From: Singulisphaera sp.
GTDB taxonomy: Bacteria; Planctomycetota; Planctomycetia; Isosphaerales; Isosphaeraceae
Assembly: GCA_027451445.1 (NCBI GenBank)
Contig: DAIDJG010000463.1
Span: 1-64,000, forward strand
Length of the DNA: 64,000 nt
Direction: 5' to 3'
This document shows positions 1 to 5,106 of the stretch, one piece after another; the stretch's first letter is position 1; every line of letters starts with the position of its first letter. The position numbers were made by a program, and so were the translations under genes. Below the pieces are notes generated by a model. It saw only the letters and a program-made list of their open reading frames with translations. It ran no database searches and was not told where the DNA came from.

Positions 1-267
1 GTTGATCGTCCACAGGAACACAGAACCGTGAATCGAGCCAACCTCTGGGTTCGACCAGCGCAGCACAGGCTCTGGGTACCTCCGCATTGGCGGTGCGTCC
101 GTATCGTCGAATCGGATCGTGTAGGCGTCGGCTTCGCGCCGGGCGGCAGTGAGCGCGGTCTCGGCACGGGCTTTCTCATTCTCGGGATCGTCCGCCGGGG
201 CGGCCATGAGGTACGGGCCAGTTGAGAGGAGAACGCCCAATTGTCCCAGGAGTGCGCGGCGATTCAT
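1..267 (-). CDS. Paralog-array protein A (partial, C-terminus outside window)
   Basis: Reading from an ATG at 267 gives 89 codons that stay open to the window edge, so only the N-terminal part is present. It begins with a hydrophobic leader (MNRRALLGQLGVLLSTGPYL), consistent with export. The visible mature part carries the array family's first block: EADAYTIRFD, then PEPVLRWSNP and a FLW motif, as in the gene at 273-1133. The start lies 5 nt after the stop of that gene, so the two are probably co-transcribed. The family is not recognised and no function is assigned. Confidence 0.75.
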   Translation of the reverse strand, partial: MNRRALLGQLGVLLSTGPYLMAAPADDPENEKARAETALTAARREADAYTIRFDDTDAPPMRRYPEPVLRWSNPEVGSIHGSVFLWTIN

Positions 268-272
268 CGGTC

Positions 273-1133
273 TCAGGGCGCTTTTGCACCCTCCTCGGAA
301 CGGAATTGGAAGGTGGTGTGCGGCTCTCGGCGATCGATGACCTGGGCCCAGCGGATGTAGTCGGACGTCCAGACTTCCCGGTCCCGGTAGGTGAAGCGCA
401 AGGCCTGCATGCTGGTCATCCGCACCGGCGCGTATTGCCACTCGTATTTGCCCGCGCGCTTGCGGGCTTCGATCACGAGGAACGCTTCGGGATCCGTTCC
501 GGCCACGAACGCGAACAAGGCGCCGTCCATGATTTCATCCTGGGCCGCCGGATAGCGGTAAACCGGCTGCGTCAAAAGCCGCAAGTTCGTCGGTGTTGAG
601 TTTGGCTTGGCGGCGGTTGGCCGCTCCCTCTCGCTGGCGGAGAAGTTCGATGCCAGATCGCGCATTTGACGAAGACGCAGCCCTCGGTTTGCACTGGGCT
701 CTCCCGCGTCCTCAAACGACCGAAACTCGACACCGGGCCGGTCCGGCTCCCAAACGGTCTCGCCGTCGCGCTCGCCGATCAGGTGGGTCGTCACGAGGGA
801 CTGAAACTCGTTGGCCCGCTGCGTGAAGGGGTGATGCCATTTGTGAATGGAAGCGGCGACGGCGGGGCGACCTCGATCGGTCCAGAGGTAGAGGCTGCCG
901 TGGAGGGAACCGAGCAGTGGGTTTGACCAGCGCAGCACGGGCTCGGGTTCCCGTTTCAGCACGACGGCCCCCGGTGCGTCGAGCCGGAACGTATATGCGT
1001 CGGCCTCTTTTTGAGCGAAGGCCTGGAACGCCTCCGTACGCGCCTTCTCATCAACCGGTTCTTCGCCGTGCGCGGTGGAACCAGCAGTTACGATCGGAAG
1101 CACAACGACAAGAGTCCATGTTGGGCATTTCAT
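273..1133 (-). CDS. Paralog-array secreted protein B (unknown family)
   Basis: This 286-aa protein has a signal-peptide-like N-terminus (MKCPTWTLVVVLPIVTAGST, cleavage near AHG-EE). It shares ordered blocks with the genes at 1-267, 2335-3198, 3326-4207 and 4204-5106: EADAYTFRLD, PEPVLRWSNP, LYLWTDRGRP, an RLRQMRDLA helix, LRLL..PVYRY, then DGALFAF.AGTDPE and a C-terminal VW. No catalytic motif is evident. The start codon overlaps the stop of the caspase-like gene upstream by 4 nt (1130-1133, ATGA type), which implies translational coupling. The family is unrecognised; the leader and repeated aromatic blocks suggest a folded periplasmic or surface domain. Confidence 0.85.
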   Translation of the reverse strand: MKCPTWTLVVVLPIVTAGSTAHGEEPVDEKARTEAFQAFAQKEADAYTFRLDAPGAVVLKREPEPVLRWSNPLLGSLHGSLYLWTDRGRPAVAASIHKWHHPFTQRANEFQSLVTTHLIGERDGETVWEPDRPGVEFRSFEDAGEPSANRGLRLRQMRDLASNFSASERERPTAAKPNSTPTNLRLLTQPVYRYPAAQDEIMDGALFAFVAGTDPEAFLVIEARKRAGKYEWQYAPVRMTSMQALRFTYRDREVWTSDYIRWAQVIDRREPHTTFQFRSEEGAKAP

Positions 1134-2113
1134 GGCTTGGCGCCCTCGTGGGACGTCGCTTCGGTCTTGGGTCCGGCGGGAACGCCAACGCGAACCTGAG
1201 ACGCGAGTGCACCGTCGCGCGAGGGATCCACCGTTGGCTCCGGTCCTTTGCCTGCGGTTCCACCGAGTTCTTCGGGCAGGTAACGGTCCTGCACCTCGCT
1301 GCCGCGGCCGTCGCCGTTGTCGTCGAGCTTGGCGTGCTCGGTCGCGAGCAGCTCGTCGTCGACGTAGCGCTGCATAACGTTGGAGACCACGGCCAGATAG
1401 AGTTCAAGAACCGAAATCGACCCGTCCTTGTCACGGTCGATACCCTCCGGAGGCGCAGCGACGACGTCGGCGAGTGCGATGGGGAAAAGCGTCTCGTTGA
1501 CCTCCTGGTCGGCCTCCGTCGCGGTGATGACGATTCGGCCCGGCGCTGCGAGGGGCCTGAGGAAGAAGCCGCTCGCCGAGGTCGTGACAAAGAACACTTG
1601 CTCGCGCGCCTCGAGGCCTTCGAAGAGTTTGGCGAATCCGCGGTCGTCGATGTCCGGTCCGGGAAGGTTCAGGTAGGCACGCCGGCCGTCGAGGTGCCCG
1701 TGACCGACGACGATTACCCAGAGTGTGTCGTTTGGCCCTAATCGCTTCCTTAGCTCGGCGACATCCGCCTCGATCCCCTCGCGGGTTGACAATCCGCGCG
1801 AGCTCGCGAGCGCCGGTCCGTCCCCGTCCTTGCTGGCCTCGCCGAAGCGCACCAGGACATCGCCGGCCCCGAAGCCATACCGTTCCGTAAGTGCTTTGTG
1901 CAGCTTTTCTACGATCTCCGCGTAGGCCTTGCGATGGGCCTCGTCCCCTGGGAGTCCCCCGATAATGAAGGCGCGGCGAGCACCCGCTTGCGTGGTCGCT
2001 TGCGATTCGCCACCGACAAGAGGACCGCAGAAGATCAGCGCAAAAGCACAAGCGAGAACGCCGATTCTCTGATGAAATGAAGCGAGCGGAAACTCTTGGG
2101 CGCGGTCTATCAT
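1130..2113 (-). CDS. Exported caspase-like (C13/C14-type fold) protein with EF-hand, catalytic Cys replaced
   Basis: This 327-aa protein has a leader with a hydrophobic core at residues about 18-31 (GVLACAFALIFCG). Residues 46-200 resemble a caspase-like p20 domain. A beta strand leads into GHGH at 137-140, with the presumed catalytic His at 138, followed by LNLPGPD. At the position where DxCxSG is expected it reads TTSASG (177-182), so Ser179 stands in for the nucleophilic Cys. A consensus EF-hand loop follows at 226-237 (D226, D228, D230, G231, I233, E237), and a partial second one (DDNGDGRG) near 264-271. It sits inside the array operon and overlaps the next gene by 4 nt. From memory, related planctomycete/proteobacterial proteins share the TEH..LDDNGDG tail; whether they also lack Cys was not checked. 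It may be inactive or use Ser. Confidence 0.75.
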   Translation of the reverse strand: MIDRAQEFPLASFHQRIGVLACAFALIFCGPLVGGESQATTQAGARRAFIIGGLPGDEAHRKAYAEIVEKLHKALTERYGFGAGDVLVRFGEASKDGDGPALASSRGLSTREGIEADVAELRKRLGPNDTLWVIVVGHGHLDGRRAYLNLPGPDIDDRGFAKLFEGLEAREQVFFVTTSASGFFLRPLAAPGRIVITATEADQEVNETLFPIALADVVAAPPEGIDRDKDGSISVLELYLAVVSNVMQRYVDDELLATEHAKLDDNGDGRGSEVQDRYLPEELGGTAGKGPEPTVDPSRDGALASQVRVGVPAGPKTEATSHEGAKP

Positions 2114-2334
2114 AACTTGTTCTCGTTTGAAATGAGGGGAAGATTCCGCATTCGGCGCATGGTGGATGCCTTCACTTGCTGTGGACGAGCCGGCTGGTCA
2201 TCCAACACGGGTACCGGGTCCGTGCATGATCACCGGGATGATTGGTACGTCGAAGTCATGACCACGCCCACGAAGCTATTTCCAACGGACCTTGGCGCCT
2301 GTGCACACGGCCGCTCGGCTGCGGCCCGAGTGCC

Positions 2335-3198
2335 TCAACGCGCACCTTCGTTGTACGACTCGGGAACGAAACGGTCTTGATAGAAGCGGAACCGGTGCTT
2401 CTCGTCGTAGTTGAACGTATTAAGCGGACCGCGAATCGATGTCCAGACTTCCTGGTTCTTGTGGTTGAGCCATAGGCTCATATCCGAAAACCTGGCCGCA
2501 CCGAAGACCCAACGAATACCCGCTCCGGTCTTTCGTGCCTCCAGATCGAGAATGATCTCGGGGTCGGTCCCTGCGTCGGAGACGAGCGCGAACAGCGCGC
2601 CATCGATCACATCGGGATCGCTGCTCTCGAAACGATAGAGCGGCTGGGGAAGGAGGCGAAGCGTCCAGCTCTCCCCGGAGTCGCCGCGGCTGCGACCGGA
2701 GAACTCCCGCGCCAGGGTCCGCATCTGCGCCAGTCGTTTTGAGGCCGAGTCCGCCGGTTCCGGAGCGCCTTCCGCAACCTTCAGTTCGACGCCGGCCGCC
2801 TGAGGCGTCCATTGGTTCACTGAGTCGCGCGTCACGGTGAGCACCGACAGCGACAAAGAGTGGAGCTCATGACACACGCAACGACTTTGGTTTTCCGCCG
2901 GATGCGAGAAGATGCTGCCGACGACATCCGGCCTTCCCCGATACGTCCAGACGTAAACCTCGCCAACCTGGCCTCCGACGCGCGTGGGGTTCGTCCAGCG
3001 ATAGATCGGCTCCGGGCGCAGCACCAGCTTCTGCTGACGCCCCGAATCGCGATAAAAGGTGAAGGAGGCCGCGTCCTCTGTGTGCTGCTTCAAGAGACGC
3101 TCGCTCTTCGACTCCGCAGCGGAAGCCGCCGTGCCGTGGTTCTGTGACGGAAGTGCGAGCGCCATGAGCAAGGCCGTCGCAATGTTCATCTTGAGCAC
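2335..3198 (-). CDS. Paralog-array secreted protein C (unknown family)
   Basis: This 287-aa protein has a leader (MLKMNIATALLMALALPSQ); an alternative ATG three codons in would also keep it. It carries the array blocks PEPIYRWTNP, VYVWTYRGRPDVV, H.LHSLS, RLAQMRTLAREFSG, LRLLPQPLYRFE, DVIDGALFAL, GTDPEIIL.LEAR and EVWTS. It differs from its neighbours by a CVCH insertion near residue 108 and a Tyr/Phe-rich C-terminus (RFRFYQDRF). It lies 221 bp upstream of the caspase-like gene and 127 bp downstream of the next paralog. The duplicates have diverged widely, which points to an old duplication. Function unknown. Confidence 0.85.
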   Translation of the reverse strand: MLKMNIATALLMALALPSQNHGTAASAAESKSERLLKQHTEDAASFTFYRDSGRQQKLVLRPEPIYRWTNPTRVGGQVGEVYVWTYRGRPDVVGSIFSHPAENQSRCVCHELHSLSLSVLTVTRDSVNQWTPQAAGVELKVAEGAPEPADSASKRLAQMRTLAREFSGRSRGDSGESWTLRLLPQPLYRFESSDPDVIDGALFALVSDAGTDPEIILDLEARKTGAGIRWVFGAARFSDMSLWLNHKNQEVWTSIRGPLNTFNYDEKHRFRFYQDRFVPESYNEGAR

Positions 3199-3325
3199 AC
3201 CTTCAAAGGCTCACTGGAAGAATATGAACGCCTGCGTAAATGGGCTAAACAACAAGACGGCTGACTTCGATGATTGCCAGCACGCGCGCGTTTTCAACGA
3301 AATTCTTCGGAATCTGGGTCCTTTG

Positions 3326-4207
3326 TCACTCGAAGTCTGCGGGCGTGTCGGTCGGCTTGCGCTGGACGGTCGTGCTGTAATAAATGTCACGTGGGCCACC
3401 GAGCTCGTTGGGGCCCTCGAATACGACGCGACCCTTGTGCTCGACGATCAGTCGGAGGTCGGTAAATCGGGCCGCGCCGTACTCCCAACGAGCTTCCTTA
3501 CCCTCGCCTCGGCAATCGAGAACCAGGAATGCTTCGGGGTCGGTGCCCTGGGCCAGTGCGAACAGGGCGCCGTCACGACTCGGACCGTTTGTGCCTTCAA
3601 ATCGGTAGAGCGGCGTGTTCAGCGGCCGAAGGGGCCATTTCGAATTCTTGTCATCGATCGTGTGTGCGGAAAACTCTCTGACGATCGCTTGCATCTGTCG
3701 GAGCCTTGCCGCTGGTGTTTCGGCGGGAGAAGGACTCTCTGGGACCGGCTTGAACGTAAGGCCCGGGACTGACGGATTCCACACGTCGTTGTTCCGCCAT
3801 ATGGCCCGGAGCGGATCGCTCGTGAACGAATGACTTTCGTGAACGATAAAGCGATCGCCGTCCGGGAGTTTGAATGTGAAAAACGTGATGGCGGCAACTG
3901 GCCGGCCTTCGCGAATCCAGAGATAAAGCGCCCCATCGTCGCCGCCCCGGACCGGCTGCCACCAGCGCAGAACAGGATCGGGAAGCCTCTTCGCGATCGA
4001 TCCGGCCTGGGCGTCCTTCCCGACGTGGAGGACGTATTCGTTTGCATGGCGCTCGAATAACGGGACCCACTTTCCCTTCTCGTTCTTGGGCGTCTGACGT
4101 GCCGATGTTGATCCGGGACTTGCGGGCTCTTGGCCCACCGCGGCGAATGTAATCGTGAGCCCAAGCGTCGCGGTTAGCAAGGGATTGAATGACTCCGTCT
4201 TCTTCAT
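3326..4207 (-). CDS. Paralog-array secreted protein D (unknown family)
   Basis: This 293-aa protein has a leader (MKKTESFNPLLTATLGLTIT, cleavage near AVG-QE). It is the most divergent member visible: LPDPVLRWWQP replaces PEPVLRWxNP, and SRDGALFALAQGTDPE replaces the DVIDGALFA block. The remaining order is kept: LYLWIREGRPVA, H.SHSFTSDPL, RLRQMQAIVREFS, LRPL.TPLYRFE, W.YGAARFTDL. Its start overlaps the stop of the upstream gene by 4 nt (4204-4207), the same coupling geometry as at 1130-1133. Function unknown. Confidence 0.85.
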   Translation of the reverse strand: MKKTESFNPLLTATLGLTITFAAVGQEPASPGSTSARQTPKNEKGKWVPLFERHANEYVLHVGKDAQAGSIAKRLPDPVLRWWQPVRGGDDGALYLWIREGRPVAAITFFTFKLPDGDRFIVHESHSFTSDPLRAIWRNNDVWNPSVPGLTFKPVPESPSPAETPAARLRQMQAIVREFSAHTIDDKNSKWPLRPLNTPLYRFEGTNGPSRDGALFALAQGTDPEAFLVLDCRGEGKEARWEYGAARFTDLRLIVEHKGRVVFEGPNELGGPRDIYYSTTVQRKPTDTPADFE

Positions 4208-5106
4208 CGCGTGCCATCCTCTTGTGACGAGTCCTTTTCAATTGGCGGCCGAGGGGCAGGGATCGTCAGCGACGGTTTGTCGGGCATAGACGCCTCGGAG
4301 TTCCACGGGACTTGCCAGACCGTTTGGCCTTTGTGATCGACGCGTAAGTTGACCATCGACATCCGGGCGATTCCGTAGTGCCAGGTGACTTTTCCGTCGG
4401 CGGGCTTTGCCTCGAAAAGAAGCAAGACTTCCGGGTCGGTTGTCTGAACAAACGCAAATAGCGCCCCGTCGATCAGGTCACTCCGTTGAGTCTCGTAGCG
4501 ATAGAGCTCCTTTGTGAGCAAACGCAATTCGGTCGGGTCCTTCTTGAAGTCGATGAACGCTCTAAGCTGGGCGGCCAACAGACGCATCTGTCGCAGCCGC
4601 GCGCTCGCCGAAGCGGCCGGCGCGGGTGCATCCGGAAAGGGGGTGAGCGTGATACCGGGCGTCCTGGGGAACCAGACTTCCTGCCCCTCTCGGGTCGCTC
4701 TTAGAGGGCTGAACGCGACGGATTGGAATTCGTGATCCTCGGCTAGGACGCCTTCACGCCGGTACTGATAGAACGACGCGACCACTTCCGGTCGCCCGTC
4801 TGCGACCCAGAGAAAAACCGCGCCGTCGTTGGTCTTTCGCAACGGGTTCGTCCAGTGCAGAACGGGCTCCGGTTTGAGCGCAAGGGGACGCGGCGGATTG
4901 CCGTCCAGAGTCATCCGGTATTCGGCCGCTTCGCGTTTCATCTCGTCGAGTTGCCTCGAGCCCTTTTCGGCGCCGGTGCTGCCGTCCGTTGCCGGTTTCG
5001 GCTCCTGGCAGTAGACGAGCGCTCCCGAACGCGGCGCGACGGAGATAAAGAACACCCCCAACACCGCAATCACGCCACCCCGCTTTATCCATCGTGGAAT
5101 CAGCAT
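4204..5106 (-). CDS. Paralog-array secreted protein E (unknown family), first gene of the operon
   Basis: The frame is open further upstream, but the ATG at 5106 is preferred. It has GAGG about 5 nt upstream and begins a leader (MLIPRWIKRGGVIAVLGVFF), giving 300 aa. The array blocks are KPEPVLHWTNP, VFLWVADGRPEVVASFY, HEFQSVAFSPLRATR, PGITL, PAASASARLRQMRLLA, LRLLTKELYRYE, DLIDGALFAFVQTTDPEVLLLFEAK, W.YGIARMSMVNLRVDHKG and TVWQVPW. The tail is Pro-rich and charged. It opens the minus-strand run that extends past position 1. No known domain is recognised. Confidence 0.85.
   Translation of the reverse strand: MLIPRWIKRGGVIAVLGVFFISVAPRSGALVYCQEPKPATDGSTGAEKGSRQLDEMKREAAEYRMTLDGNPPRPLALKPEPVLHWTNPLRKTNDGAVFLWVADGRPEVVASFYQYRREGVLAEDHEFQSVAFSPLRATREGQEVWFPRTPGITLTPFPDAPAPAASASARLRQMRLLAAQLRAFIDFKKDPTELRLLTKELYRYETQRSDLIDGALFAFVQTTDPEVLLLFEAKPADGKVTWHYGIARMSMVNLRVDHKGQTVWQVPWNSEASMPDKPSLTIPAPRPPIEKDSSQEDGTR

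Follow-up and report, generated by a model that had tools for sequence, protein, structure and literature searches.

What are the tandem paralogous genes at the start of this stretch of planctomycete DNA, and why does a caspase-like gene lie in their midst? The stretch analysed here (the window; 64,000 nucleotides, contig C463 of a 10.9-Mb draft genome) opens with a run of genes on the minus strand, for which an initial annotation had proposed five copies of an unrecognised secreted family, interrupted by a protease-like partner and together forming a possible recognition or processing system.

The tandem paralogs and their predicted products

Working from the first operon gene as seen towards the contig edge, the run begins with copy F of the tandem paralog family, named FAM here (4204–5106, minus strand; 300 amino acids, the start at 5106 being preferred over a longer GTG open reading frame), followed by copy E (3326–4207, minus; built from two repeats, residues ~45–150 and ~163–286) and copy D (2335–3198, minus), whose ortholog occupies the same slot of a sister genome at 69% identity. 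The caspase-like gene comes next (1130–2113, minus), encoding a legumain/caspase-fold protein of 327 amino acids with an N-terminal hydrophobic leader; beyond it lie copy B (273–1133, minus; 286 amino acids) and the first 89 amino acids of copy A (1–267, minus), which is cut by the edge of both window and contig and is completed on contig C206. All five proposed copies are thus where they were said to be. The ‘several’ 4-nt overlaps reduce to two, between F and E and between the stop of the caspase-like gene and the start of B; the remaining junctions are gapped by 5, ~220 and ~130 nt.

The complete copies share 32–39% identity with B and 45 invariant alignment columns, and a whole-genome search with B recovers the window paralogs at E-values of 1e-18 to 1e-42, so that these are true paralogs and not chance resemblances. 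The invariant columns of the complete window copies include PxP..W, GRP, RLxQM, LR.L...YR, DGALFA and TDPE; the shared blocks originally listed stand in the main, save that ‘GTDPE’ reads TTDPE in F.

The proposal that the family is both exported and unrecognised has held up. Searches with 82 members gave no consistent Pfam match, no relative was returned from NCBIfam, PHROGs, PADLOC or PDB sequences, and a strong match to a described domain, the outcome named beforehand as counting against novelty, was not found above curated cut-offs. An N-terminal hydrophobic stretch is present in 146 of 167 FAM proteins, as judged by a hydrophobicity scan rather than by a trained signal-peptide predictor, and a later transmembrane-like stretch in only 5 of the 167. 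Judged from sequence, FAM is an undescribed family of predicted exported proteins.

We see that FAM is internally duplicated, its two halves being homologous to one another (hhalign E 1.9e-14), with the near-invariant residues falling mostly in the second half (R168, Q171, R194, D212, P224, E225 and E231). One FAM protein (copy E) and one caspase-like protein were modelled. The FAM model is confident (pLDDT 89.5, pTM 0.83), and Foldseek returned nothing below E 1e-3 for it against the PDB or viral models. A structural comparison with the PDB places it nearest, consistently, to supersandwich beta domains: GH36/GH65 enzymes and their N-domains, heparinases, galactose mutarotase, OpgG and the P1 domain of YidC. 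These neighbours could mean that FAM proteins, with a beta fold of supersandwich type, act on or bind carbohydrates or polymers in an accessory capacity, and that they depend on the MoxR machine described below to mature. The resemblance is weak and at most suggestive, however, with a best Z of 6.6 across ~100 of ~245 residues, below the tool's meaningful level; FAM, unlike the supersandwich domains, is a clear two-repeat protein, lacks any sequence relation to them and carries no recognised conserved catalytic set, and we regard the carbohydrate reading as distinctly unlikely.

The operon beyond the contig edge

The five-gene run does not end at base 1. The left end of the window, reverse complemented, matches the beginning of contig C206 (locus L017) without a difference across exactly 141 nt, as two contigs adjacent in an assembly graph would. 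This join is based on a k-mer-length overlap and synteny rather than on reads; independent support for it comes from the sister genome G001 (an Isosphaeraceae MAG, JARLIH010000273) and from G018, since both show the matching gene order, with the caspase-like gene, FAM and MoxR contiguous on one contig. Locus L017 continues with the rest of copy A, a further FAM, MoxR, DUF58, FAM, BatA/VWA, a 1189-amino-acid membrane protein, a VWA/GATase/MG2 protein and a last FAM, after which the opposite strand carries an EF-hand protein and then DUF1501. The full order in the window genome thereby becomes FAM-FAM-FAM-pseudolegumain-FAM-FAM-FAM-MoxR-DUF58-FAM-BatA/VWA-1189-aa membrane protein-VWA/GATase/MG2-FAM, and it is well supported that the window cluster forms the 5' half of a larger operon of Planctomycetia, a specialised version of the MoxR-DUF58-VWA (Bat) type into which FAM genes are interleaved.

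The MoxR of L017 matches PF07726 (AAA_3; 3.6e-61, 205 bits) and carries both Walker A (GVPGVGKT) and Walker B (FLLADEIN) motifs; it also exceeds the Pfam cut-off for bpMoxR (42 against 27 bits), AAA_3 being by far the better fit. The adjoining gene is DUF58 (PF01882, 1.6e-47), and the BatA-like VWA protein (PF07584, 8.4e-16) has a DRSAS motif and two N-terminal transmembrane segments. MIDAS DxSxS motifs are intact in all three of DUF58, BatA and VWA/GATase, the last identified by Pfam, and in a simple scan the positive-inside charge pattern of BatA and VWA/GATase predicts that their VWA domains lie outside the cytoplasm. The 1189-amino-acid membrane protein has no Pfam match, and no TPR gene was seen among the L017 core operon genes scanned with Pfam. 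Gene maps drawn with our own gene caller and labelled by phmmer place MoxR-operon genes on one stretch with FAM clusters in about 18 different genomes or contigs.

This layout shares with the Bat (Bacteroides aerotolerance) operons the MoxR AAA+ protein, DUF58, the BatA-N plus VWA architecture with MIDAS, and membrane-anchored VWA proteins with predicted extracytoplasmic domains (PMC3557215). Unlike them, it includes the 1189-amino-acid membrane protein, VWA/GATase/MG2, a legumain-fold gene and from one to more than ten interleaved FAM genes, often with BlaI/M56 and DUF1583 genes as further neighbours, as seen at many FAM loci. For the Bat proteins a periplasmic complex has been proposed, with their function left open, and Leptospira biflexa showed no oxidative-stress phenotype when the Bat genes were deleted (PMC3557215). 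A second comparison is with the vWA-MoxR ternary conflict systems (Kaur et al. 2020, PMC7159879), which have in common with the present operon a MoxR plus vWA core, caspase-like components and planctomycete hosts. Here, in contrast, we see a DUF58/BatA architecture, exported partners and a MoxR of the AAA_3 type; a third ternary component (VMAP, iSTAND, FtsH or beta-propeller) was seen neither by Pfam among the L017 core operon genes nor by PADLOC, and DUF58 and BatA go unmentioned in PMC7159879. Our literature search returned no paper joining MoxR, DUF58 and Planctomycetes, nor one joining Planctomycetes, caspase and legumain.

Several smaller features of these loci were also recorded. Three parallel MoxR-DUF58-type operons occur in the window genome: an ordinary type with a Cys-bearing legumain-fold gene at its 3' end, an intermediate type that lacks FAM, and the FAM type (L095 on C275, L094 on C310 and L017 on C206). 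A ~1900-amino-acid DUF1583/DUF1581 protein lies within the FAM arrays of L066, L068, L070, L071 and L072, those of L066 and L071 also including an EF-hand protein whose C-terminal half is TolB/WD-like. BlaI/M56 (BlaR-like) regulator pairs adjoin the caspase-like gene in many FAM operons (L072:11814–14456, L083, L089 and L118), the M56 protein of L072 bearing WD40 repeats, and a secreted multi-EF-hand protein recurs together with a DUF1501 protein beside FAM-type MoxR operons (L017:14499–17548, L049, L050, L104, L118 and L122). The idea that FAM arose from a partner-protein domain was rejected, profile comparisons with eight partner families giving probabilities of 2.5% or less.

The legumain-fold protein and its catalytic site

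The gene lying between copies B and D encodes a protein whose AlphaFold model (mean pLDDT 72, about 90 in the core) superposes on legumain with a Z of 18.7 over 211 residues (Foldseek E 9e-9) and on metacaspase 4 with a Z of 18.0. Its sequence match to Pfam C13 is sub-threshold, it is not among the 12 matches to PF00656 in its own genome, and PADLOC does not match it. The protein thus shares fold and GH motif with legumain and metacaspase (clan CD, C13/C14), but belongs to an array-related clade that lacks the catalytic Cys: in the window copy the GHGHxDG His is kept and the catalytic-Cys site is replaced (TTSASG). The EF-hand ascribed to this gene scores 18.1 bits, below the Pfam cut-off of 25.9, although EF-hand-like D-x-[DN]-x-DG motifs are there; the protein might bind Ca2+.

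Relatives of the gene fall into three score classes, an array type (at least 320 bits at gene level), an intermediate type (225–267) and a common type (116–144), the dividing threshold having been set after the gap was seen. The common type is found at about one gene per genome in roughly 160 genomes, and all five of the common-type neighbourhoods that we read (L095–L099) are ordinary MoxR-DUF58-BatA-membrane protein-VWA/GATase operons that lack FAM and end with the legumain-fold gene, which therefore looks to be an ordinary part of planctomycete Bat-type operons. Barely seen by Pfam, this terminal gene may represent an undescribed family of clan CD peptidases.

The non-canonical sequences (array type plus intermediate) track the FAM arrays closely. 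Genes of this kind occur in 25 of the 28 multi-copy FAM genomes against 8 of 320 others (Fisher 5e-28, a value that overstates independence, the genomes being related and their kinship uncorrected), and the array type alone in 19 of 28 against 1 of 320; conversely, the non-canonical gene occurs in 8 genomes that lack FAM, and 10 genomes have just one FAM. The association suspected from the window thus extends across genomes, and the opposite outcome, absence of the caspase-like neighbour from every other array genome, which had been set down beforehand as evidence against it, was not what we found.

A Cys five residues before the SG motif is present in 28 of 33 common-type sequences but in none of 21 array-type and none of 11 intermediate sequences, whilst the GH-motif His is kept in all 65. 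We prefer the 28/33 count as those sequences were mostly taken by bit-score rank, the 20 ordinary-operon relatives of A4 having been hand-picked and including Cys-bearing members. The position equivalent to the legumain Cys may be off by one or two; saying this, Cys is also missing at all neighbouring positions save in one array-type and three intermediate sequences. The array-type exception (L111:9529–10446) has its Cys one residue off the usual site (TCPVSG), and three FAM-less relatives have theirs three residues off. Since the non-canonical sequences form one clade (support 1.0), a single loss of Cys is suggested, and the array-associated branch is probably, to judge by its residues, a pseudoprotease; we propose that the array-type gene derives from an ancestral relative ending an ordinary planctomycete MoxR operon.

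These results bear directly on the notion of an active, processing partner. The legumain fold, the invariant GH motif and the tight genetic linkage to FAM would all suit a protease that uses an alternative nucleophile (Thr or Ser, for example) and processes the exported FAM proteins. The residues found at the Cys site, however, vary freely (T, S, G, A, I, V, M and P), leaving no conserved alternative nucleophile; with Cys at 0 of 32 in the array branch, we hold such activity to be improbable, and the processing role suggested at the outset finds little favour. The pair of operon types, ordinary (usually with Cys and His) and derived (Cys lost), offers a natural comparison of putative protease and pseudoenzyme within the same genome.

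Distribution, slot conservation and possible role

By profile search, FAM is present in 38 of the 348 genomes sampled from the class, and in a broader phylum sample of 294 genomes matches are confined to the window genome and two others of the same class. A scan of 84,980 species representatives, made with short peptide patterns and thus not exhaustive, returned only records titled as planctomycetes, among them one MAG labelled Kuenenia, whose array has almost the same gene order as that in a Planctomyces MAG (L071/L066). On present sampling, FAM is found only in planctomycete bacteria. The window genome itself holds about 20 copies, several of them dispersed, the sites elsewhere in the genome numbering about 12.

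In a tree of 169 FAM proteins, orthologs share an operon slot across genera; this is seen for the slot between DUF58 and BatA in L017, L048 and L081, and again when copies D, E and F of the window are set beside their counterparts in G001. Slot changes on the tree number 74, compared with 92.9 ± 2.6 for labels permuted within genomes (0 of 2000 permutations), although some lineages (L089 and L115) show recent tandem expansion instead. Between the window genome and G001, FAM orthologs are 49–69% identical, BatA 67%, the caspase-like protein 73% and MoxR 91%. FAM orthologs are under purifying selection (dN/dS 0.12–0.41, similar to their operon partners), which, taken with the slot conservation, points to a division of labour rather than to a hypervariable repertoire.

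Two further readings turn on these figures. FAM might be a surface or periplasmic recognition repertoire, for ligands or for self/non-self, diversified by duplication and with the MoxR-VWA module as its signal transducer; its copy number is indeed expanded and variable between genomes, and MoxR-VWA modules feature in conflict systems predicted for multicellular bacteria, planctomycetes among them (PMC7159879). But the dN/dS values reveal no diversifying selection, the slots are conserved, PADLOC matches neither FAM nor the caspase-like gene, and the architecture is that of an ordinary envelope-facing Bat operon and not a ternary conflict layout; a recognition system, as first suggested, is not indicated and seems to us unlikely. 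Alternatively, a selfish or neutral tandem expansion may have landed in a MoxR operon by accident, as the lineage-specific expansions and the dispersed copies and fragments might imply. The recurrence of the same partners and slots in several families, and purifying selection on FAM, make this reading highly improbable, and we disfavour it.

On the reading that we prefer, and to which we give roughly even credence, the FAM family would supply exported subunits or clients to a specialised envelope machine of the MoxR-VWA kind, in which a dead legumain-fold protein acts as scaffold. Hexamers of MoxR in the cytoplasm, together with DUF58, would link ATP hydrolysis to the VWA proteins anchored in the membrane, the large domains of which are predicted to face the periplasm. 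These proteins would in turn assemble or remodel a complex in the periplasm. FAM, as exported two-repeat beta proteins, would serve as slot-specific structural or adaptor subunits (clients) of this complex, and the caspase-like protein, EF-hand-bearing but catalytically dead, as a scaffold of legumain fold that descends from the ordinary-operon member. A fixed-stoichiometry complex is argued against by the range of FAM copy number per operon and by the many dispersed copies. In a bolder and rather doubtful form, FAM would be a new kind of exported subunit, set in defined slots by the MoxR-VWA machine, with the dead legumain-fold EF-hand protein as gatekeeper, to give a heteromeric periplasmic or cell-surface structure; if true, this would be an envelope assembly system that lacks a described counterpart. 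Envelope-facing MoxR-VWA (Bat) machines have no known clients, and the published phenotypes conflict; a MoxR-VWA operon with its own dedicated, expanded exported set in conserved slots makes candidate clients directly testable.

FAM copies that are broken or fragmentary, and look like pseudogenes in decay, were seen at L061 and L062 (G001 contigs C328 and C257) and at G000:C152:18500–18652.
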